From NCBI GenBank assembly GCA_021155855.1, contig JAJNAZ010000013.1, positions 1 to 62,678 of the forward strand: a stretch of DNA of 62,678 bases, given 5' to 3'. Shown one piece after another: positions 3,111 to 15,778 of this stretch. The position numbers and the translations under genes are program-made. This DNA comes from Solirubrobacterales bacterium (GTDB taxonomy: Bacteria; Actinomycetota; Thermoleophilia; Solirubrobacterales; 70-9). Each line of letters opens with the position of its first letter. Positions within the stretch are counted from its first letter, which is position 1. Below the pieces are notes generated by a model. It ran no database searches and was not told the origin of the DNA. It was given only the letters and a program-made list of their open reading frames with translations.

Positions 3111-3222
3111 CGCTCCCGCTTAGGACGACAAAGCCGTAGCCGAGATCAGGCCGGTAGGCGTGCTCGCTCGACGATCCGTGCGTCGTAGCGAGAAACGAAT
3201 CGGGCCCCGCTATGTCTGTCAC
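3111..3222 (+). repeat. Dispersed repeat, copy 2
   Basis: The core at 3165-3206 is identical to copy 1. Similarity to copy 3 extends on both sides, from CGCTCCCGCT (3111) to about 3222, with small gaps. It lies just upstream of the M1 peptidase start and is a direct repeat of copy 1 on the far side of that gene. Confidence 0.82.
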
Positions 3223-3232
3223 TACCACGCTG

Positions 3233-4384: not shown

Positions 4385-6172
4385 CTAGACATCCAGAACC
4401 CCGTCGACGGTGAGAATGACCCCGCAGGCGACGAGCCCGGTCGCCAGCAGCCGGCCGGCCCACCGAAGGACCCGGCCCCATGGGCCCTCGGTGGGCCCCG
4501 TGGCCGTCAGCGCCGTCAAGGTCACGACCCCGACGGCGATTGCGCCGGCGCTCACGAGAAGATCGCTGTCGGCGCCTGCACCGAGCGCGAGCACGACCAG
4601 GGCGGGCCGGGCCACGACTGGGATCGCCACCGGGACCAGCACGGCGCGCCAGCCGGCGAGGGACGGCTCGGCTGGGGGCGGTCGCCGGAACAGATCGGCG
4701 ACGCCGGCGATCGCGGCGATGATCCCAGCGGCGGCCCGGAACGAGGGCTCGCTGACATCTAGGGCTTCCAAGAGCGGATCGGCGAGCGCCGCGACGACGC
4801 AAACGGCGAGCCCGCCAATCGCGCCCCCGACCGCGGCCAGGCCGATCGCGGTCTGCGACGACCGTCCGGCGCGCGGGATTGCGAACGCCGCCCGGGCCGG
4901 GTTGAGCGCCAGCACCAGGGCGACGGCCCAGAGCCAGCCCGATGGCGGGTCATCACCCGGGTCTGACGACTCGCTCGAGCCCGACGTTTCCTGCGCCTCG
5001 ACGATCGGGATCGTCCTCAACAGCCCCGCCAACGCGTGCTGCTGATCGTCCATGCGAGTCTCGCCGTCGACGAACCACGCACCCTCCAACCGTTCGGGGC
5101 TGGCGGCGTCCGCGGCGTCCCTGGCATCCGATTGCTCGCTCACAGCGAGCCCGGCGATGCAGGTTGCGCGCTCGGCGAGCGGGCCCTCGAGGTCCGTCAG
5201 TCTGGGCTCTTGCTGGGCGACCAGCCACCAGCCGGTGAGTGCCTCGCTGATCACTCCGTACCCGCCACCGCGAGGCGTGTCGCTGCCCCGCACCAACTCG
5301 CCCCATGGCCCGAACTGTTGGCTGACCCAGCGGGTTGCGCTGCCGAACAGCTCCGCTTGCCGGCGCGCGTACTCAACCTCTCGCTCGGTGAGCGGCCCGC
5401 CGCCACGCTCCGGGAACTCGACGGTCTCGGCCTGCCCGTAGGCGGCCCAGTGATCGGGGATCGGCGGCCAGTAGTCCTCGACCTCGTCCCGCGACGTCGC
5501 CAGGTAGGCGCCGATGCGGTCGGCGGCGTCGCCCCACCCCTGGCCGGGGAAGGCTCGGTGAAGCAGCGCCAGGGCCCAATAGGCCTCCCCGGTGTAGTAC
5601 TTCGAATACTCGCCGGCCACCGGTGCCCGGACGCCCTCATCGTAATACGCCAGCACGGCGCCGGTGGGCTCGGTCTGGGCAAGCAGAAAGCGCCCGAGTC
5701 GGCGCAGGACGCGGTCGTAGCGGGTCTCGCCGGTGGCCTCCCTCCGATACACCAGCCCCGCGACCAGGAGCGCGCTCGCCCCCGTTGACACCTCGCCCTG
5801 ATAGGTGACTGCGGCCCAGCCATCGCGCTCGAAAAGCGTGTCAAGTGCCCACTCGAGACCGCGGTCGGCGGATTGCAGCGCGCCGGGCAATTGCGCGGCG
5901 GCGGCCTGGTAGAGGCCCATTGTCACCCCCGCATGACGAACGGCGTTGTAGTCGGGCGGGATCGAGTCGTCGTCGGCGTCGTAGATGTAAACCCAGGTGC
6001 CGTCCGCTTCCTGATTGCGGATGAACCAGTCGACGCTCGCCTGCGCCGACTGCCGAAGCTCTGCCGCGGTAACCGAGGGGCAATGTTCCGGCGGCGCCAC
6101 CACCGCGAAGGCGACGGCGATGGCGAGCGCGAGGGTGAGGCCGGCCCTCCAGACGCGCGTCGTGGCGGTCAT
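4385..6172 (-). CDS. Secreted/membrane toroid-like protein, third gene of HTTM cassette
   Basis: The 595-residue protein has an N-terminal signal or anchor (LTLALAIAVAFAVVAP). A helical region of about 350 residues follows, rich in aromatic and acidic residues (QEADGTWVYIYDADDD, DYWPPIPDHWAAYGQAE, GYGVISEALTGWW) and reminiscent of alpha/alpha-toroid enzymes such as squalene-cyclase-like or glycan-epimerase-like proteins. The C-terminal 190 residues form about six membrane helices. I do not recognise a specific family. Its start overlaps the HTTM gene stop by four bases (ATGA), so the two are translationally coupled. The toroid probably faces outside the membrane. A role in modifying a lipid or secreted substrate together with the HTTM protein is inference. 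Confidence 0.7.
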   Translation of the reverse strand: MTATTRVWRAGLTLALAIAVAFAVVAPPEHCPSVTAAELRQSAQASVDWFIRNQEADGTWVYIYDADDDSIPPDYNAVRHAGVTMGLYQAAAAQLPGALQSADRGLEWALDTLFERDGWAAVTYQGEVSTGASALLVAGLVYRREATGETRYDRVLRRLGRFLLAQTEPTGAVLAYYDEGVRAPVAGEYSKYYTGEAYWALALLHRAFPGQGWGDAADRIGAYLATSRDEVEDYWPPIPDHWAAYGQAETVEFPERGGGPLTEREVEYARRQAELFGSATRWVSQQFGPWGELVRGSDTPRGGGYGVISEALTGWWLVAQQEPRLTDLEGPLAERATCIAGLAVSEQSDARDAADAASPERLEGAWFVDGETRMDDQQHALAGLLRTIPIVEAQETSGSSESSDPGDDPPSGWLWAVALVLALNPARAAFAIPRAGRSSQTAIGLAAVGGAIGGLAVCVVAALADPLLEALDVSEPSFRAAAGIIAAIAGVADLFRRPPPAEPSLAGWRAVLVPVAIPVVARPALVVLALGAGADSDLLVSAGAIAVGVVTLTALTATGPTEGPWGRVLRWAGRLLATGLVACGVILTVDGVLDV

Positions 6173-7305
6173 CGCGAAGCCACGGACGCGGTGATCCCCT
6201 CGTCACCCGCGCGCCGGGCGCGGCGGACCGCGGGCAAGAGCAGCGCCGGGAGCGCGAACCAGGCCGTTAGCGGTAGGCGGCTCAACGTCAACGCGACGGC
6301 CGGCGCCCCGCGGAGCGTGGTGCCGTCCCGGTCGGTGACCGCGAGCGCGGAACCCGGCGGTGCGGGCTCGACGCGGAAGCGCGCCAGCCAGTCGAGCCCA
6401 CCGACGAGTCTGCCCAATCGCGCCTGGCGAGCAGATGTCGAGTCGATCCGCAGCACCCGATCCCGAGTCGAGGGCACCGCCCAGATCACCAACACCGCGA
6501 TGCCGAGCAACGAGAACACCTGGACCGACGCGGACGTCTCGATCGTGACGTGGAAGACGACTGCGACCCAGACGGCCGCATAGCGAGTGCGAGGCCACCA
6601 CAGTCCGAGCGCGATGAACAGCTCGGTGAGGACGATCAGCTTCGCTGCCCCCGTGTGGAAGCCGCGGTCGGTCAGGGCCGAGAGCGCCCAGTCCGGCAGC
6701 GGCCACGCCTCGAGGTCGTCCCGGGCGCGGACCACGCGCTGCCAGGTGACGGTGCCCCCGAACCAGTCGGGGTCGACGAGCTTGCTGAGGCCGGACGCCC
6801 CGTAGATCGCCGCACACTCAAACCGCAGCAGCCATAGCGGCCAGGCCGGCGCCAAGGGGTCTCGCGCCGGCTGCCCCCGGCGGTGGCGGATCCACGCGTC
6901 CAAGGACAGCTCGCGTCCGCATGGGGCGACCGCCAACAGTCCGAGGACGACGACCAGATAGGCCCGGTTGTTGTGGAAGTGCGTGGTCGAGAGGAAGAGG
7001 TTGTAGGTGACGACCGCGAACGTCGTCGCCGTCGCGACGCGGGTCAGAAAGCCCAGCGACATCGCGACGGCGGCTGCCGCCGCCAGCCACAGGAGCCCGA
7101 CGTAGATCGCCTCGGGCAACTCCGGATACCAGGCGGCGTAGGGCTCGTAGAAGGCGTCCCGATACGTTTCCCCGCGCCACGCGTCGGAGAGAAACGGCTG
7201 CAGATGGAGGAGCACCACGGGTCCGGCCAGCGCCCGGAGCAGGGCGAGGGCCCGCATGCTGACCGTGCGGCCGAGCAGGTCGTCGAACCTCGCGAGCGCG
7301 TTCAC
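6169..7305 (-). CDS. HTTM domain membrane protein (vitamin K-dependent carboxylase-like)
   Basis: The 378-residue polytopic protein matches the horizontally transferred transmembrane (HTTM) family, which includes the membrane part of vitamin K-dependent gamma-carboxylase. The characteristic segment STTHFHNNRAYL is near residue 106. About eight hydrophobic helices are visible (for example AIYVGLLWLAAAAAVAMSL and LIVLTELFIALGLWW). Bacterial HTTM proteins are widespread but mostly of unknown reaction. It overlaps both neighbours by four bases, so 7748-4385 is one operon. The function is not assigned beyond the family. Confidence 0.85.
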   Translation of the reverse strand: MNALARFDDLLGRTVSMRALALLRALAGPVVLLHLQPFLSDAWRGETYRDAFYEPYAAWYPELPEAIYVGLLWLAAAAAVAMSLGFLTRVATATTFAVVTYNLFLSTTHFHNNRAYLVVVLGLLAVAPCGRELSLDAWIRHRRGQPARDPLAPAWPLWLLRFECAAIYGASGLSKLVDPDWFGGTVTWQRVVRARDDLEAWPLPDWALSALTDRGFHTGAAKLIVLTELFIALGLWWPRTRYAAVWVAVVFHVTIETSASVQVFSLLGIAVLVIWAVPSTRDRVLRIDSTSARQARLGRLVGGLDWLARFRVEPAPPGSALAVTDRDGTTLRGAPAVALTLSRLPLTAWFALPALLLPAVRRARRAGDEGITASVASR

Positions 7306-7748
7306 CCAGCGCCCTCGCGTTCACGACTTCGCAGGACCTCGACCTCGGGCGGGTCGGCGTTGTGCCAGGACGTGACCCTCGCTTCGAGATATCTGGTGTC
7401 GCCGTCGCGCGGGGTGTTGTCCGCGACCCAGTCGAGGGCGGCGTCGAGAAAGGCGAGCTGGTTGTCGAGCCCCGCGTCGGCGTGGTGGCGGACCGACGGG
7501 TAGCTGAGACCGCGATCTGCGACCAGATCGTCCCAGCGGTACCCCGACCATGGGCGCTCGATCGGGATCCGCCGGCCGTCGGCGGTGACCCGGACCACGT
7601 CCGCCCGCCAGGTGCTCGACTCGGGAAACATCTGGAACGCGAACTCCTTGTGGTCGGACGAGTAGCCCCGCACCACCAGTCCGAGCTGCAAAGCCACGAC
7701 GGCGGCGAAGACGACGCGGCGCCCGACGACCCTGACCCTCGGCGACAC
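7302..7748 (-). CDS. Small membrane-anchored protein, first gene of HTTM cassette
   Basis: The protein has 148 residues from a GTG at 7748. It has one N-terminal hydrophobic helix (RRVVFAAVVALQLGLVVRGY) and an outside domain with FQMFPESSTWRADVVRV. It does not resemble a known enzyme, but small partners of this kind occur beside bacterial HTTM genes. Its stop overlaps the HTTM start by four bases. The frame is open further upstream to 7922, but that stretch is arginine-rich shadow of the divergent gene. No clear ribosome site is seen, so translation may be leaderless. Confidence 0.72.
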   Translation of the reverse strand: MSPRVRVVGRRVVFAAVVALQLGLVVRGYSSDHKEFAFQMFPESSTWRADVVRVTADGRRIPIERPWSGYRWDDLVADRGLSYPSVRHHADAGLDNQLAFLDAALDWVADNTPRDGDTRYLEARVTSWHNADPPEVEVLRSREREGAG

Positions 7749-7798: not shown

Positions 7799-8608
7799 GT
7801 GTATTTCGAGCTCGACACCGCGATGCTCGACGCTGCGCAGGCGGTCTGCGTCGCGCTCCCCGCGGCGGGACTGCCCGCGCTGCTGCGGCGATTCGGCGGC
7901 CGTGGCTGGTCGCTGGTAGCACCGCTGTCGGTGGTCGCGACGGTGATCGCGATCACCGTGGCAGCCGAAAGCGCCGAAGTCCTGACCTGGATCGCGCTGC
8001 TGCTCGTGCCGCCCGGCTGCGCACTCGCGCTCGGTTGGGCTGCGCACGGCGCCCGGCCGTGGATGGCCGGCCTCGTCGTCCCGATGCTCGCCGCGGCGAT
8101 GGTCGCCCCCGACGATCCGCTTGGCCGTCTCTTGAGGCTCGGCTTGATCGTCGGTTCGTGCGTGACCGTCGGGCGCCTGCTCGCCGGCGCCGCGCCGCTC
8201 GCGCTGCTCAAGGGCGGCGTCCTCGCGATGGCCACGATCGACGCCGTCTTCATCTTCGGCGACTTCTTCGCCGAGCAGAACGCACAGTTCAACGCCGCCG
8301 CTCCCGCGGGCCTACCCCGGCTTCAAGTCGCCGACATCGGTGACGTATCGACTGACTACGGCGACTTCTTCGTCGCTGCGCTCGTCGGCGGAATCCTGGC
8401 CGCCGAACGGCGTCCCCAAGTGGTCGCTGCGCTGGCGACGTTCGCGGTTGCCCAGGCGTTCAACCAGCTCTTCCTAGTGACCGATTCGCTGCCAGGCACC
8501 GTGCCACCGGCGCTTGTCCTGCTCGCCTTCGAGATCCGGCAAGCGCTTCGACCGAAATCGTCGACGACGCTCCTCGACGCCGAGCTGGCGGGACGGCCGC
8601 GCTTATAA
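7799..8608 (+). CDS. Polytopic membrane protein of unknown function
   Basis: The protein has 269 residues, mostly hydrophobic, with six to eight predicted helices (ALLLVPPGCALALGWAAHG, LLRLGLIVGSCVTVGRLLAGAAPLALL). Acidic loops include IDAVFIFGDFFAEQNAQFN. GTG at 7799 is the first start in this frame and lies 50 bp from the divergent HTTM cassette, so the two may share a control region. It is not recognised as any named family. Its last codons run into a tRNA-like sequence. Confidence 0.7.
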   Translation: MYFELDTAMLDAAQAVCVALPAAGLPALLRRFGGRGWSLVAPLSVVATVIAITVAAESAEVLTWIALLLVPPGCALALGWAAHGARPWMAGLVVPMLAAAMVAPDDPLGRLLRLGLIVGSCVTVGRLLAGAAPLALLKGGVLAMATIDAVFIFGDFFAEQNAQFNAAAPAGLPRLQVADIGDVSTDYGDFFVAALVGGILAAERRPQVVAALATFAVAQAFNQLFLVTDSLPGTVPPALVLLAFEIRQALRPKSSTTLLDAELAGRPRL

Positions 8609-8716: not shown

Positions 8717-8860
8717 GTGCGCGGTCGGGATGCCCGCATCCGGTCGGAGCGCGGGAGCTGTGTCCGGTCCGTGGATGCTTCAGACGGGACGGGTCAACGC
8801 GGGAACGGCAGCCGCGGTAAGGATCGGCGGATACGCTGCGGCCGAGGAAGGAGAAAGCAC

Positions 8861-9247
8861 ATGAACGTCGCATTGTGGATCGCTGCCGGCGCGCTGGCCA
8901 CCGTCCTGCTGATCAGCACCTCCAAGGCGTTCGTGCCCCGGGAGAAGATCGCCGCCGTGGGCGGCCCCGCCGCGCAATGGGTCGAAGACTTCAGCCCCAG
9001 TGCGCTCAGGGCCATCGCGACCCTCGAACTCCTTGCTGCGGCAGGCCTGATCCTGCCCGCCGCGCTCGACATCGCGCCGGTACTGGTGCCGCTGGCCGCT
9101 ACCGGTACCGCGTTGCTGTTTATCGGCGCGGTCACCATGCGCCTCCGCCGCGGCGAGAGGGGAACGATCGTGCCCGACCTGGTCTATCTCGCCCTGGCCA
9201 TATTCGTGGCGTGGGGCCGCTTCGGCCCCGAGTCCTTTACCAACTGA
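8861..9247 (+). CDS. DoxX-like integral membrane protein
   Basis: The 128-residue protein has four hydrophobic helices and the DoxX-family features STSKAF in the first loop and LRAIATLELLAAAGLIL in the second helix. DoxX proteins are small quinone-linked or stress-related membrane proteins of uncertain reaction. The ATG at 8861 has a strong ribosome site (AGGAAGGAG seven bases before it). The longer open frame upstream overlaps repeat copy 4 and is not coding. It stands alone. Confidence 0.87.
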   Translation: MNVALWIAAGALATVLLISTSKAFVPREKIAAVGGPAAQWVEDFSPSALRAIATLELLAAAGLILPAALDIAPVLVPLAATGTALLFIGAVTMRLRRGERGTIVPDLVYLALAIFVAWGRFGPESFTN

Positions 9248-10847: not shown

Positions 10848-10869
10848 GCGAGATACTGCGCGGGCGATG
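10848..10869 (+). promoter_or_regulatory. Conserved leaderless start region, copy A
   Basis: GCGAGATACT is followed by nine bases and the ATG at 10867. The GATACT hexamer (10852-10857) is at the right distance for a -10 box whose transcript would start at or next to the ATG. The same arrangement precedes the genes at 12327, 13989 and 15221. No matching -35 box is conserved. Confidence 0.6.
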
Positions 10870-11271
10870 TCGCAGGAGAACGTCGAGCTGGCCGTCCGCT
10901 TCTACGAGCCGGCGACGAGCAAGGCCGAGCTACTGGCCGCGATGCCAAGGGCGATGGCCCTCTGCCATCCGAACGTGGAGTGGACGAGCCGCGAGGACGG
11001 GTCGACCTACCGGGGCCGCGAGGGAGCGACGGAGGCGATGGAACGCTACCTCGAGAGCTTCGATGACTATCGGTTCGAGGTGCAGCGGATAATCGACTGC
11101 GGAGGCGACGATGTACTGGTCATCGGACTCGAGGTGGCGACGGGCGCAAGGAGCTGCGCCGAGGTTCGCTCGCGCAACTACGAGCTGCTGACCATTCGGG
11201 ACGGAATGATCGTCCGCTTCCGCGACTTTCGGCACGAGCCAGAAGCCCTCAAAGCCGCCGGGCTGCGGTAG
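10867..11271 (+). CDS. SnoaL-like (NTF2-fold) protein
   Basis: The protein has 134 residues, beginning MSQENVELAVRFYE and ending EALKAAGLR, the hallmark of a large paralogous family in Thermoleophilia. The NTF2-like fold forms a cone with an internal pocket; members may be hydratases, isomerases or ligand-binding proteins, but the polar pocket here does not identify a substrate. The ATG at 10867 matches the conserved N-terminus, and translation is probably leaderless (see the promoter feature). A 174-bp gap without features separates it from the divergent M23 gene. Paralogues lie at 12327, 14274, 14676 and 15221. Confidence 0.88.
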   Translation: MSQENVELAVRFYEPATSKAELLAAMPRAMALCHPNVEWTSREDGSTYRGREGATEAMERYLESFDDYRFEVQRIIDCGGDDVLVIGLEVATGARSCAEVRSRNYELLTIRDGMIVRFRDFRHEPEALKAAGLR

Positions 11272-11435
11272 TCGCGCGCCGACTTCCGCTGTGCGCGAGA
11301 GGCAGCAGTCTTCTGCTTTCGCATGGGGAGCGGGCGCGAGGGACGGCCCCCGTTAAGACGACTCGTCTCGCGCGACGCGAGTCAGCGCATTGGCCGAGCT
11401 CGAGCGGCCGGCGGGGTAGCCGGGTCCGCCGCCCG

Positions 11436-12167
11436 TCAGCCGTAGCTCAGCTTCTCGTCCCAGTCCGGGCGTCCCTCTCTCGTCAGGTCGAGCATGTTCC
11501 ACAGCGGCTCGAGCGTGCCGACGCTACGGTGGTCCTGTCCGGGGTCCATCGGCGCGAAGGTCAGCTCCGCGCCCCAGAAGTGGCGGATCGTCTCGCCGTC
11601 GCGGTGGAAGACATTGAGCATTGGTACCTGTGATCCGTCCGCGGTTTCCCCGTGATAGTCACGGTTATAGGCATTGCCGGCCGAGGACAGAAGCCGCAGG
11701 TGGCGCCAGCCGCGCTCATCGCCCCAGGTCAGCAGTCGCTGCAATGACGTCTTCGCCACGACCGCGAAGTTGAGGTGCTGAGCCGCGTGCAGGGCGGCGC
11801 CGTCGAGCTGATCGAGCAGCGCCACGCACGACGGGCAGGGGCCCTCCTCGAGCGGCAGCTGCGCCGTCTTCCCACTCACGGGCCCCGGTCGATCGCCGCC
11901 ATAGGTTCGCGGGAACATGAAGTTGTAGATCACGAGCGAGTCCTTGCCCGGCGCGAAACAGTCCGACATCCGCGCCTCGGACGGGGCGCCACCCGCGCCG
12001 GCCGCCTCGAAGACGTAGTCCTCGCGAACGGCTCCACCGGGCGGCAGATCACGCCTCGCGGCGGCCACCGCCTCCATCTGGCGACGCAGCTTGACCTCCC
12101 GCTCGAGCAGTCGGTTCCGCGCCGCTCGGTACTCCGCCGACTCGCCTGGAAACGCGATCGGGCTCAT
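11436..12167 (-). CDS. DUF899 thioredoxin-like protein (paralogue 1)
   Basis: The 243-residue protein belongs to the DUF899 family, which has a thioredoxin-like fold and no established reaction. It has an N-terminal coiled region (RLLEREVKLRRQMEAVAAARR), then SLVIYNFMF, then a CPSC motif about residue 105 followed by LLDQLDGA. The ATG at 12167 has an excellent ribosome site, AAGGAGGAG. Two paralogues lie at 12961 and 36990, with CPVC and CPGC at the same place. The CxxC suggests redox activity; this is inference. Confidence 0.88.
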   Translation of the reverse strand: MSPIAFPGESAEYRAARNRLLEREVKLRRQMEAVAAARRDLPPGGAVREDYVFEAAGAGGAPSEARMSDCFAPGKDSLVIYNFMFPRTYGGDRPGPVSGKTAQLPLEEGPCPSCVALLDQLDGAALHAAQHLNFAVVAKTSLQRLLTWGDERGWRHLRLLSSAGNAYNRDYHGETADGSQVPMLNVFHRDGETIRHFWGAELTFAPMDPGQDHRSVGTLEPLWNMLDLTREGRPDWDEKLSYG

Positions 12168-12307
12168 TTCTCCTCCTTGGACCGGTCGTTGTTGCTCAGC
12201 TCCCTCGCTCCACCTCGAGCGCCGGTACCGCGCCTGCGGAGGTTTGGGCAATCACGGCCGGTCAACCTCCTAACGGGCGCTCGCTCCACATGGAAGCAAC
12301 TCTTCCT

Positions 12308-12329
12308 GCGAGATACTGAGCGGGCGATG
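12308..12329 (+). promoter_or_regulatory. Conserved leaderless start region, copy B
   Basis: GCGAGATACT, nine bases, then the ATG at 12327. GATACT is at 12312-12317. It is identical to copy A except for two bases in the spacer. Confidence 0.6.
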
Positions 12330-12743
12330 TCGCAGGAGAACGTGGAGATCGTGCGGGAGGCCATGGACGCCTACCACCTCGGCGACAAGGACGCGTGGGC
12401 GCAGTTCATGGACCCCGAACTCGAAACATTCCCTGTCGCCGAGTTCCCCGAACCCGGTCCCCTGATCGGCCCGGACGCGGCTTGGGATTTCTACCAGCGG
12501 TTCGGGGAAACGATGGCGGGGAGCGGGCTGTACGAGACCGCTGGGTTCGAGACCGCCGAGTTGATCGACGCTGGCGAACGGGTCTTCGCCTGTCAACGGA
12601 CTCCGCTACATGGCCGAGGGAGCGTGGAAGAGGTCGAGTTCAGGCTGTGGGGGGTGCACACGTTCGATCAGCGGCGATGGGTCCGGACCCAGTGGTTCTT
12701 CGATCGGAGTGAGGCGCTCGCAGCAGCAGGGCTGTCGGAGTAG
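12327..12743 (+). CDS. SnoaL-like (NTF2-fold) protein
   Basis: The protein has 138 residues with the family start MSQENVEIVREAMDAY and end SEALAAAGLSE. It is divergent from the DUF899 gene at 12167, with 159 bp between their starts. Like its paralogues it has no diagnostic catalytic residues and is assigned by fold only. Transcription probably begins at the ATG. Confidence 0.88.
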   Translation: MSQENVEIVREAMDAYHLGDKDAWAQFMDPELETFPVAEFPEPGPLIGPDAAWDFYQRFGETMAGSGLYETAGFETAELIDAGERVFACQRTPLHGRGSVEEVEFRLWGVHTFDQRRWVRTQWFFDRSEALAAAGLSE

Positions 12744-12758
12744 CGCTTGGACGAACAC

Positions 12759-12774
12759 CGGGAGCGCGCTCCCG
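12759..12774. terminator. 16-bp perfect palindrome after the SnoaL gene
   Basis: CGGGAGCGCGCTCCCG is a perfect palindrome 15 bases after the stop at 12743. It could form a hairpin that ends the transcript, but no T-run follows. An operator is an alternative. Confidence 0.4.
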
Positions 12775-12820
12775 CGTGTCGCGCGAGGCGGGAGCGGGTG
12801 CCGCGGACGACAACGGGAGC

Positions 12821-12834
12821 CGGGCATATGCCCG
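12821..12834. promoter_or_regulatory. 14-bp palindrome upstream of DUF899 gene
   Basis: CGGGCATATGCCCG is a perfect palindrome 127 bp upstream of the GTG at 12961. It is a candidate operator. No regulator is encoded directly beside it. Confidence 0.3.
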
Positions 12835-12887
12835 AAGTCCAGGCCGCTCGTCTTGCCGCGCCTGCGGTCTAGCCTGGGCGATGATCG

Positions 12888-12921
12888 GTTTGCGGACCTG
12901 AGCAGTTTGCGGACCTGAGCA
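12888..12921 (+). repeat. Tandem 17-bp duplication
   Basis: GTTTGCGGACCTGAGCA occurs twice with no spacer (12888-12904 and 12905-12921). It lies 40-73 bases before the DUF899 start codon, in its leader or promoter. Confidence 0.9.
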
Positions 12922-12960
12922 GGTCTCTAGTAGAGGGCCCCTAGCGACAAGGAGGCAAGC

Positions 12961-13716
12961 GTGACGACGGAGCACAAGGTAGGAACGCGCGAGGAGTGGC
13001 TGGCCGCCCGCGAGGAGCTGCTCGCGCAGGAGAAGGAGCTGACCCGCCGCAATGATGAGCTGTCGCGCCAGCGGCGGGAGCTGCCGTGGGTGCAGGTCGA
13101 GAAGGAGTACAGCTTCGAGACCGACGACGGAACGAAGACGCTGGCGGAGCTCTTCGACGGGCGCTCGCAGCTGCTCGTCTACAACTTCATGTTCGGCCCG
13201 GCGTACACGGCGGGTTGTCCGGTCTGCTCGTCCGGGGCCGACACTTACGACGGCGCGGTGCCGCATCTGAACGCGCGCGACGTGACGTTCCTCTGCGTCT
13301 CGCGCGCGCCGCTCGAGAGGCTGCAGGCGTACAAGCAGCGCATGGGCTGGAGGCTTCCGTGGGTCTCGTCGGCGGGAACCGACTTCAACTTCGACTTCGG
13401 AGCGTCACACACCGAGGAGGAGCTGAAGCCGTTTCTGGAAGGCGGCGACCTCGGTCCCGTTCCCGAGCTGGCGGTCGCGTGCGGGACCGATCCCGCCGGA
13501 TATCTGGCCGAGGCGCCAGTGCTGAGCTCCTTCGTGCTCTCCGACGGCGTCGTCTACCGCGCGTACTCGACCGCCGAACGCGGCCTCGAATTCATGATGG
13601 GCTTCTACGGGCTGCTGGACCGGGCGCCGAAGGGACGCGACGAGGGCGACCCGCCGGACTTCTGGATCCGCCGCCACGACGAGTACGAGGACGTCGGCGC
13701 CGGACGGACCGGGTAA
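12961..13716 (+). CDS. DUF899 thioredoxin-like protein (paralogue 2)
   Basis: The protein has 251 residues. An N-terminal coiled coil (EEWLAAREELLAQEKELTRR) precedes the thioredoxin-like core with QLLVYNFMFG, then GCPVCSSGADTYDG, and the C-terminal DFWIRRHDEY typical of the family. GTG at 12961 is preceded by AAGGAGG at good spacing. The role of DUF899 proteins is not established; the buried CxxC-like pair suggests thiol chemistry. A tandem 17-bp duplication and a palindrome lie upstream. Confidence 0.9.
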   Translation: MTTEHKVGTREEWLAAREELLAQEKELTRRNDELSRQRRELPWVQVEKEYSFETDDGTKTLAELFDGRSQLLVYNFMFGPAYTAGCPVCSSGADTYDGAVPHLNARDVTFLCVSRAPLERLQAYKQRMGWRLPWVSSAGTDFNFDFGASHTEEELKPFLEGGDLGPVPELAVACGTDPAGYLAEAPVLSSFVLSDGVVYRAYSTAERGLEFMMGFYGLLDRAPKGRDEGDPPDFWIRRHDEYEDVGAGRTG

Positions 13717-13794
13717 CGCCCGACCACCCGCCCACCAGCCCGCTTCTGCTTCCGCGGGAACTCAGAACCGGGCGGCTCGCAGTGACAGGTCCTT

Positions 13795-13912
13795 CGCTCC
13801 CGCTATGGACGACGAGCGATAGCAAGCATCACGCAATGGGCAGGCGATGTCGCTCGACGATCCGTGCGTCGTAGCGAGTAACGAATCGGGCCCCGGCTAC
13901 TGTCAACTTCGG
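13795..13912 (+). repeat. Dispersed repeat, copy 3
   Basis: The core at 13851-13892 differs from copies 1 and 2 by one base (13879). Together with copy 2 it defines the longest version, from CGCTCCCGCT at 13795 through GGGCCCCGGCTACTGTCAAC at about 13908. Confidence 0.82.
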
Positions 13913-13969
13913 GACCGGAATGCAAAAACGCCGGTCACTGCCGCCGGGAATCACCGCCCGGTCCGCCCA

Positions 13970-13991
13970 GCGAGATACTGCGTGGGCGATG
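13970..13991 (+). promoter_or_regulatory. Conserved leaderless start region, copy C
   Basis: GCGAGATACT, nine bases, then the ATG at 13989. GATACT is at 13974-13979. The downstream gene is not a SnoaL protein, so the motif is not just shared coding ancestry. Confidence 0.6.
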
Positions 13992-14270
13992 AAGCTCTAC
14001 GTTTGCTGGGGAACCTTCCGTACCAACAAGGGTCACCCTTGCGGCGAGGCCCACGAAGCCTTGGTCGCTGCGGGCTACGAGCCCCAGGTAGTCAAGACCG
14101 GCGGCTGCTACAGAACCGACCCGCTCTTTGCAGGGCGGCGTGAGGTCAAGCGGCTGACAGGCACCTACAAGGTGCCCACGCTCGTGCTCGACACCGGCAC
14201 GACCATCGACGGCTCGGAGAACATCATCGAGTGGGCACGGGCCAGTGAAGCCGCCGGGCTGCCGGAGTAG
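13989..14270 (+). CDS. Glutaredoxin/GST-N-like thioredoxin-fold protein
   Basis: The 93-residue protein begins MKLYVCWGTF and has a thioredoxin-type active region (KGHPCGEAHEAL, a single C in place of CxxC), the cis-proline segment YKVPTLVLD and the downstream GSENIIEWA of GST N-terminal domains. It may be a glutaredoxin-like thiol protein or mycothiol-linked reductase. The ATG at 13989 fits the conserved start and the promoter motif; the frame is open upstream to 13920. The last residues, EAAGLPE, imitate the tail of the SnoaL proteins, and the next gene starts three bases after the stop, so the genes are coupled. Confidence 0.82.
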   Translation: MKLYVCWGTFRTNKGHPCGEAHEALVAAGYEPQVVKTGGCYRTDPLFAGRREVKRLTGTYKVPTLVLDTGTTIDGSENIIEWARASEAAGLPE

Positions 14271-14273
14271 GCG

Positions 14274-14672
14274 ATGTCGCGGGAGAACGGCGAGATGTGC
14301 GCGAGGCAATCGAAGCGTGGAACCGGCGAGACGTGCCGATCACGCGGGCCTTGTGGCACCCCGAAGCGGAGGTTGACTGGTCCCGTTCTCGAGGACCGCT
14401 CAAGGGTGTCTATCGCGGTCGTGAGGAGGTCGAGGCGTTCCAGGACGAGTTCTGGTCGATGTTCGACAAGGTCGACCTTGAAGCCCACGGCTTCATGCAG
14501 GCGGGCTCCGACGTCGTCGTCCCGAACACCGCCCACCTGCGGGGACGAGATGGGATGGAAGTGCTCGCGAGGAGTGCCTTCGTGTACACGGTCGAGAGAG
14601 GGCAGATCACACGCCCTTCGGATGTTCCAGGACCGAGCCGAGGCCCTCGAAGCCGTCGGGCTGTCGGAGTAG
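14274..14672 (+). pseudogene. SnoaL-like gene with two compensating frame breaks
   Basis: The start MSREN at 14274 and the end MFQDRAEALEAVGLSE (stop 14672) are in one frame, but the middle (REAIEAWNRRDVPITR to VYTVERGQIT) is in another. One base is missing near 14295, where GAGATGTGCGC should read GAGATCGTGCGC, and one extra base lies near 14610 in CGCCCTTCGG. Repaired, it would be a normal 132-133-residue family member. As read it is not functional. It sits between, and is coupled to, its neighbours, with start codons three bases after each stop. Confidence 0.85.
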
Positions 14673-14675
14673 GCG

Positions 14676-15091
14676 ATGTCGCGGGAGAACGTGAAGCTCG
14701 CTCGCAGGGGCTTTGATGCGTTCAACCGGGCGTTCTCGGAAGGGGCGGCATCCGACTTTTACGAGACGCTCGACCCGAACGTCGAGTGGGTCCCCATGTC
14801 GGCGCTCCTGGAAGGAACGCGTTACAAGGGCCACGACGAGGTGCGGGAGTGGCTCGAGGAAATGAGGCGGGATTGGACCAGCTTTGAGGTGAGGCCGAAG
14901 CACTACCGGGACCTGGGCGACGACCGGGTACGGGTCTTGGGCTCGTGGCGTGCACGGGGGCGGGGGGAGAAGTGCTGCTCGACTTCCCGCAAGCGGCCTG
15001 GCTGGTGCAGTACCGAAAGGGAAAGCTGATCCGGCTGCAGACTTTCACCGAGCGAACGAAGGCCCTCGAGGCCGCCGGGCTGTCGGAGTAA
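14676..15091 (+). pseudogene. SnoaL-like gene broken at a G-run
   Basis: MSRENVKLARRGFDAF to LGSWRARGRG (about residue 96) is in frame, then the frame fails in the run of six G at about 14961-14966. With one more G the protein continues GEVLLDFPQAAWLV and ends KALEAAGLSE at 15091, a complete family member. As read it stops at 15029. A homopolymer error in the assembly is as likely as real inactivation. Confidence 0.85.
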
Positions 15092-15201
15092 GCGCTTCAC
15101 GACTTCACGCCCCTTTTTTGGCCGATTGGCGCGCGCCCCCGCCACCTCGGCGGTCCTATATGGGGATGAGAGGGTCGTAGGCCACCCCGCCAGCCTGGTT
15201 G

Positions 15202-15223
15202 GCGAGATACTGAGGGGCCGATG
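15202..15223 (+). promoter_or_regulatory. Conserved leaderless start region, copy D
   Basis: GCGAGATACT, nine bases, then the ATG at 15221. GATACT is at 15206-15211. Confidence 0.6.
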
Positions 15224-15628
15224 TCGCAGGAGAACGTAGAGATCGTTCGGCGCGTGGCGGACGCCTACAACCGCCGCGACGTGGAAGCGATGCTCGACGA
15301 ACTCCAGCCCGAGATCGAGTGGCACCCCTGGTTGCAGGTTCAGCTCGGCGGGGGAGCCACCGTGTATCGGGGGTACCAGGGCGTCCGCGCGGGAATCCGG
15401 GACGGGGAAGACGCTTTCTCTGAAGTCCAGGCAGAGCTGTCAGAGATCCGGGACCTTGGCCAGCGAGTCGTCGCCATCGGTCAGCTCCGGGGACGCGGCA
15501 GGGAGAGCGGCGCGATGACCGAATCGGCACTTGCTTGGATCGTGGAGTTCAAGAGTGGCAAGGTGATTCGGGTCCGCGAATATCTCGACCCTCAGGAAGC
15601 CCTCAAAGCCGCCGGGCTGTCGGAGTAG
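15221..15628 (+). CDS. SnoaL-like (NTF2-fold) protein
   Basis: The 135-residue intact family member runs from MSQENVEIVRRVADAYNRRD to EALKAAGLSE. It is the last of the plus-strand SnoaL run. The segment WHPWLQVQLGGGATVYRGYQG forms the usual central strands. No substrate is indicated. It ends about 225 bp before the likely true end of the convergent fasciclin gene. Confidence 0.88.
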   Translation: MSQENVEIVRRVADAYNRRDVEAMLDELQPEIEWHPWLQVQLGGGATVYRGYQGVRAGIRDGEDAFSEVQAELSEIRDLGQRVVAIGQLRGRGRESGAMTESALAWIVEFKSGKVIRVREYLDPQEALKAAGLSE

Positions 15629-15778
15629 GCCGGCGCGACTTTTCGAGGGCCCGATCCCGGCTCACCATCGTACTGCGCTGATAACAAGTGCCCGTAATTC
15701 GGGGACGTCTTCGCTGAGCGCCGGGCGCCTACCGCATCGACGTCAACCAGGAAGCGATCGCACAGGGATGGCAGTGAA

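Follow-up and report, generated by a model that had tools for sequence, protein, structure and literature searches.

A cassette of three genes in the window, the 62,678-nucleotide stretch of Solirubrobacterales DNA analysed here, was found to encode a conserved membrane gene set with four components: a small anchored protein, an HTTM protein, an (α/α)6 toroid, and a MarC-like domain. There are four components and not three because the 595-residue product of the last gene is a fusion of the toroid with the MarC-like domain. The cassette is real and conserved, its recurrence is far beyond chance, and no description of it was found in the literature that could be searched. That the gene set works as one unit is well supported. 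HTTM proteins, which are widespread in bacteria, have a human relative in the vitamin K-dependent gamma-glutamyl carboxylase (GGCX), the enzyme deprived of its cofactor by warfarin-type drugs; to our knowledge, few bacterial members have a known job. The cassette extends this kind of protein with partner families that are unnamed in the libraries searched. Repeated linkage and genome co-occurrence tied one HTTM subfamily to three defined parts, one of them an enzyme-like toroid, and this provides a short, testable gene set for learning the role and the target of a non-carboxylase HTTM enzyme.

The three genes lie on the minus strand within positions 4385-7748, and the open reading frames of the window showed that they are packed as one operon (Table 1). 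The four-base overlap between successive genes claimed by the original prediction, which had been made from the window's letters, was found at both junctions (GTGA at 7302-7305 and ATGA at 6169-6172). Matching ATGA/GTGA overlaps were present in the equivalent gene sets of other genera.

Table 1. Features of the cassette and its flank in the window (TM, transmembrane)
Feature	Position	Strand	Basis or remark
Small N-anchored protein, predicted exoplasmic	7302..7748	-	Open reading frame, GTG start, ~148 aa, 1 N-terminal TM helix
HTTM protein, VKGC superfamily	6169..7305	-	378 aa; PF05090, K175 aligned to human GGCX K218
595-aa fusion: TM anchor, predicted exoplasmic (α/α)6 toroid, and probable MarC-like 6-TM domain	4385..6172	-	
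N-terminal TM anchor of the 595-aa protein, residues 3-24	6101..6166	-	Helix in the structure model
Toroid domain, residues 34-398	4979..6073	-	Model, structure matches, conservation over 43-44 sequences
Probable MarC/LysE-like 6-TM domain, ~residues 410-595	4388..4945	-	Sub-threshold PF01914 matches, alignment
Divergent membrane protein without family	7799..8608	+	Doubtful fifth part

Recurrence of the gene set in two actinobacterial classes

The neighbourhoods of 43 full-length toroid loci from two actinobacterial classes were read, and the pair of small protein and HTTM protein was counted when it lay within 6 kb of the toroid gene. The pair was present in 20 of the 43 loci, which is a lower bound because some contigs end inside the 6 kb, and it occurred in five arrangements. 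Seven of the 20 loci had the order of the window on the same strand and 10 were divergent, while in the remaining three the pair followed the MarC-like gene (L088), was convergent (L014), or was about 4 kb off (L093). The gene order of the window recurred in L101, L104-L107, and L112. On the toroid tree, the state of linkage changed at least eight times. Such repeated linkage in differing arrangements argues strongly that the genes share a function. The tight coupling had been read in the original prediction as one machine at the membrane, a reading said to fall if the partners were not conserved next to HTTM genes elsewhere. The neighbourhood survey found both the small protein and the toroid conserved beside HTTM genes, and the reading gained further support from genome-level co-occurrence where the genes were unlinked.

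In the window's own class, the toroid was found in 5 of 399 genomes and as one additional contig-edge fragment, with two further weak matches in the membrane part left out of this count; close relatives of the window genome were mostly without the gene set. The small protein was found in 4 of the 399 genomes, all among the six toroid-bearing ones, one of them with only the contig-edge fragment. The hypergeometric probability of this co-occurrence was 1.4e-8, or 3.8e-6 without the fragment, values that ignore relatedness, the four genomes belonging to four families. In the second class of the phylum, 42 of 395 genomes carried the toroid. Among 17 more toroid genomes of this class in which no pair was linked, seven had an HTTM gene elsewhere, with the small protein adjoining it in all seven (7/7). 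Altogether, an HTTM protein was present in 25 of 38 toroid genomes of the second class, including three f37 genomes without any HTTM, versus 1 of 20 toroid-less genomes (Fisher 5e-6, relatedness ignored). The HTTM protein in that one toroid-less genome was a VKGC whose gene overlapped an imelysin-like gene and had no small protein, and the pair itself was found in none of the 20. The toroid/MarC-like pair occurred alone in several genomes and is the more widespread core of the system; the HTTM pair is therefore an add-on that is not needed for the job of the core.

Properties of the four components

The HTTM protein of the window matched PF05090 with an E value of 4.8e-22 (79.2 bits, above the curated cut-off of 27.7). 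A profile of five cassette HTTM proteins matched human GGCX structures at E 8e-5, and the HTTM profile matched bacterial VKGC at 99.5% probability in hhalign. GGCX, an HTTM relative, binds vitamin K, and its active-site residues are K218 and H160. Residue K175 of the HTTM protein aligned with K218 and was shared by all 20 cassette HTTM proteins, in which W181, G184, E228, and H252 were also invariant. The NH motif was found in four of four VKGC, whereas the window subfamily has N followed by R; HTTM group 2 aligned at this position to the N or H of HTEN/HTEH. No match to the VKGC luminal β domain (PF22777) was found in genome G000. Judged by its sequence, the HTTM protein is a member of the VKGC superfamily that keeps one key residue, yet it falls short of a gamma-carboxylase in two defining features, the active-site histidine and the luminal domain. 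The cassette HTTM further differs from GGCX and VKGC in having the small protein, the toroid, and the MarC-like domain as partners. As separate observations, the HTTM gene of G210 at L038:5938-7056, which belongs to the L014 subfamily (67% identity), had no adjoining small partner, and the toroid gene of G210 ran off the contig end (L015). In G565, a c-type cytochrome-like gene was followed by an overlapping pair of a VKGC-type gene and an imelysin-like gene (L115, 473-2769); this locus is a different, separate HTTM context.

The small protein had one N-terminal TM helix, in agreement with the original prediction. Its homologues fell into two sequence groups with marginal mutual similarity (hhalign E 0.01), which had in common the single N-terminal helix, an ...MF motif, a short β/α/β domain, and a position directly upstream of the HTTM gene. 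In the window protein, the helix was followed by F-x-[FWY]-Q-M-F and then by the β/α/β domain. Small proteins of both groups, searched against Pfam and NCBIfam, gave only chance hits at E<1 and no match to an SdpA model, and the AlphaFold2 model (pLDDT only 71) gave no fold match, the best Z of 5.6 being at chance level. The name "SdpA-like" refers to position and architecture only. An F-x-W-x-M-[MF] likeness had suggested that the small protein might be a VKGC luminal domain that had become detached, but this idea was rejected on hhalign E values of 0.3-0.7 and chance-level structure matches.

The AlphaFold2 model of the 595-residue protein, built with nine homologues (pLDDT 89, pTM 0.86), showed one N-terminal TM helix followed by an (α/α)6 barrel. 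The model and hydropathy suggest an uncleaved signal anchor at the N-terminus and not a plain signal peptide. The positively charged N-terminus, together with where the anchor sits, suggests that the barrel lies outside the cell. The best structure match was to AGE enzymes including cellobiose 2-epimerases (Z 28.4, 332 residues aligned, rmsd 4.0), and other matches were to GH76 mannanases (Z 26.3), AprG (25.4), heparin UGL (24.8), and MmpH (24.7). The barrel is shared with the AGE, GH76, and GH88 enzymes (Z 25-28), but identity in the structure matches was only about 8-16%. The window toroid also differs from these enzymes in its membrane anchor, its predicted exoplasmic location, and two invariant cysteines. 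Neither Pfam nor NCBIfam contained a family that it matched, and PDB sequences offered no match to a solved structure (best E 0.18, to AprG), so that nothing in these searches identified it as the well-known enzyme with an unrelated job against which the original prediction had cautioned. Residues R79, H80, R143, R144, D153, E232, D240, W242, R281, E310, Q347, W366, D375, Q378, and H379 were invariant over 43-44 toroids, as were C31 (44/44, just outside the toroid domain) and C338 (43/43). Residue His390 of RmCE is a general acid/base of the AGE-type family (PMC5726027), and H379 in the last helix may correspond to it; the two coincided if this helix was left ungapped (model 398 = chain 409). 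No second invariant histidine could be placed opposite H259 of the RmCE catalytic pair H259/H390; H80 is invariant in the toroids.

The closest sequence relatives found for the toroid were toroids fused to MurF-like ligases. With the toroid profile, two plasmid proteins that carry a Mur-ligase annotation were matched in their N-terminal half (E 5e-23 and 4e-28), one from Agrobacterium (L019:5560-8496) and one from Sulfitobacter (L020:5119-8184), and the C-terminal half of both was a Mur ligase, MurF-like in Agrobacterium. In the plasmid collection, these Mur-ligase fusions were the only toroid relatives. Their toroids are homologous to that of the window and have kept the YN..RHA, GEA, DHW, and DD..H motifs, but they are fused to an ATP-dependent ligase and hence presumably cytoplasmic, and no HTTM or MarC-like partner adjoins them. 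Bap-type adhesin genes were seen near both fusion genes, together with type I secretion genes in L019. Apart from these, G1093 carried a second toroid copy (L108, G1093:C2) that was more divergent and had neither an HTTM nor a MarC-like gene beside it, and the toroid gene of L027 was preceded, at a distance of 3 bases, by the gene of an anchored protein judged by eye to be DUF3105-like, in an operon-like layout (L027:8932-9549).

The C-terminal third of the 595-residue protein matched MarC (PF01914) at E 0.024 and 14.5 bits, below the cut-off of 23.9, and the MarC-like relatives in L013 (E 3.7e-5, 23.7 bits) and L087 (E 5.5e-5, 23.1 bits) came within one bit of it. Hydropathy and reading of the sequence indicated about six TM helices, with a conserved N-P-x-R at the first. 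The domain is likely a distant LysE/MarC-type protein. The toroid and the membrane domain were encoded by separate genes in most relatives, and these were adjacent and usually overlapping in L013, L014, and L026-L029; fused forms were found in the window, L012, L097, and L111. Because the window, L012, and L097 formed one clade of the toroid tree and L111 stood apart on a long branch, the fusion probably arose twice. The toroid and the C-terminal TM helices that the original prediction had given to this protein were thus recovered, the toroid in the model, but its signal peptide gave way to the apparent anchor, and the TM region proved to be a separate MarC-like domain.

Possible function and alternative explanations

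We favour, at a probability of about 0.4, an envelope-modifying system in which the toroid/MarC-like core and a carbon-acid module of the small protein and the HTTM protein act on the same substrate. The anchors and the topology of GGCX suggest that the small protein, the toroid, and the HTTM active site all face the outside, and the modification would take place on the outward side of the cytoplasmic membrane. Export or flipping of the substrate may be the task of the MarC-like domain. The toroid would process a substrate bearing a carbohydrate or an aminoacyl- or peptidyl-sugar, as AGE epimerases or GH76/GH88 enzymes do, in a buried cavity lined by histidines and acidic residues (R79, H80, E196, D240, D375, and H379) as its putative active site. 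By analogy with GGCX and reduced vitamin K, the conserved lysine of the HTTM protein could drive a quinol-dependent deprotonation of a weakly acidic carbon of the substrate, with the small protein as an exoplasmic substrate-binding or scaffold subunit. This chemistry is conjecture, bounded by what the fold and the homology allow. The narrower proposal of an undescribed, quinol-powered pathway, in which a VKGC-superfamily enzyme and an exoplasmic toroid enzyme, coupled to a MarC-like permease, would work one after the other on one exported molecule, a surface glycan or glycopeptide, is tentative.

Several results weigh against the envelope-modifying system. The GGCX H160 position is not conserved in the HTTM subfamily of the window, and the HTTM protein therefore need not use the GGCX mechanism. 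The near-equal Z values of the structure matches, terpene cyclases with the same barrel among them, make the fold clear, but the chemistry is not fixed by the modelled fold. The MarC matches were all below threshold, and the genomes G704, G445, G680, and G176 had the toroid and MarC-like genes but lacked any HTTM. The analysis brought to light no substrate and no further conserved gene in the vicinity; the conserved small substrate gene for which the original prediction had suggested a search did not turn up among the families that recurred in three or more genera near the cassettes.

The last result also bears on the maturation of a secreted peptide (a ribosomally synthesised, post-translationally modified peptide or a bacteriocin), in which the small protein and HTTM pair would act like SdpA/SdpB or a linaridin HTTM protein while the toroid and MarC-like parts cut, epimerise, or export a peptide encoded elsewhere. 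Bacterial HTTM proteins of known context act in peptide maturation, as SdpB/YitO does with SdpA/YitP (PMC6818787), and an HTTM protein is also contained in linaridin clusters (PMC9927463), in which LinHL have been named peptide epimerases (PMC10406935); this keeps the explanation alive. Like SdpAB of the Bacillus subtilis sdpABC operon, the cassette places the gene of a small anchored protein immediately before an HTTM gene, for action at the membrane; like the LinH type with LinL, it pairs an HTTM membrane protein with another protein associated with the membrane. SdpAB has no known toroid or MarC-like partner, however, and membership in this system was rejected: matches to the SdpB family (TIGR04033) were weak for the window HTTM (E 0.0025, 17.5 bits) and for the best-matching relative, the L105 HTTM (E 1.1e-6, 28.5 bits), far under the cut-off of 178.4, and the small protein fitted no SdpA model. 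No recurrent small precursor gene, secreted SdpC-type gene, linaridin precursor, or alpha/beta-hydrolase was seen near the cassettes (the SdpC type was not searched genome-wide), and the pairing with a toroid also differs from linaridin clusters. Peptide maturation is somewhat unlikely. A role of the HTTM pair as a quinone-linked redox helper, MauE/DoxX-like, that oxidises or matures the toroid through an essential C31-C338 disulfide would agree with the invariance of both cysteines and with the secondary MauE and DoxX matches of HTTM proteins, but it is unlikely, as both cysteines were kept in the toroids of HTTM-less genomes and no CxxC was seen in the HTTM or small protein of the window.

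The structure matches of the toroid to drimenyl diphosphate synthase (Z 25.4) and squalene-hopene cyclase (Z 25.1) would suit isoprenoid chemistry, in which a toroid like a class II terpene cyclase acts on a lipid carrier or menaquinone and the HTTM protein, whose relatives bind vitamin K, is its quinone-binding partner. The DxDD motif (DADD at residues 65-68 in the window toroid) was not conserved among relatives in the toroid alignment, and the sequence relatives of the toroid were fused to Mur ligases; we regard this chemistry as quite improbable. Mere co-inheritance of unrelated genes on mobile or conserved segments would explain the patchy distribution, and several f37 neighbours (a malic enzyme and a kinase-like gene) were indeed plain synteny. 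Set against this are the five arrangements, the fusions, the gene overlaps, the unlinked co-occurrence across families, and the absence of the pair from the 20 toroid-less genomes surveyed, which make co-inheritance alone highly improbable. The combination of parts that underlies the envelope-modifying system appears to be undescribed, as the original prediction had supposed: no description of a toroid/HTTM system, which here has four parts, was found in the openly searchable literature (subscription papers were outside the search).

Flanking genes and repeats in the window

The divergent membrane protein gene next to the cassette had a homologue with 62% identity beside the SdpA-like/HTTM pair of G324. 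It was rejected as a fifth part, since it was present only in the window and G324 and in no other cassette. An origin of the cassette as a tRNA-borne island was rejected after a tRNA scan of the window and of neighbourhoods, in which the only tRNA stood at the unlinked HTTM pair of L037. A defence or phage system was likewise rejected, with no PADLOC match at E<0.01 and no PHROG match.

A small DoxX-like membrane protein, recognised by eye, was encoded near the cassette at 8860-9247 on the plus strand. Positions 10848-15635 held a row of paralogous small genes, SnoaL/NTF2-like by eye, which had a conserved start region of about 40-88 nucleotides in common (repeat families D1, D2, and D4). An interspersed repeat of 85 nucleotides was present in three copies, at 1293-1377, 3146-3230, and 13832-13916; its core was partly palindromic, with GACGATCCGTGCGTCGTAGCGAGAAACGAATCGGGCC in two of the three copies.

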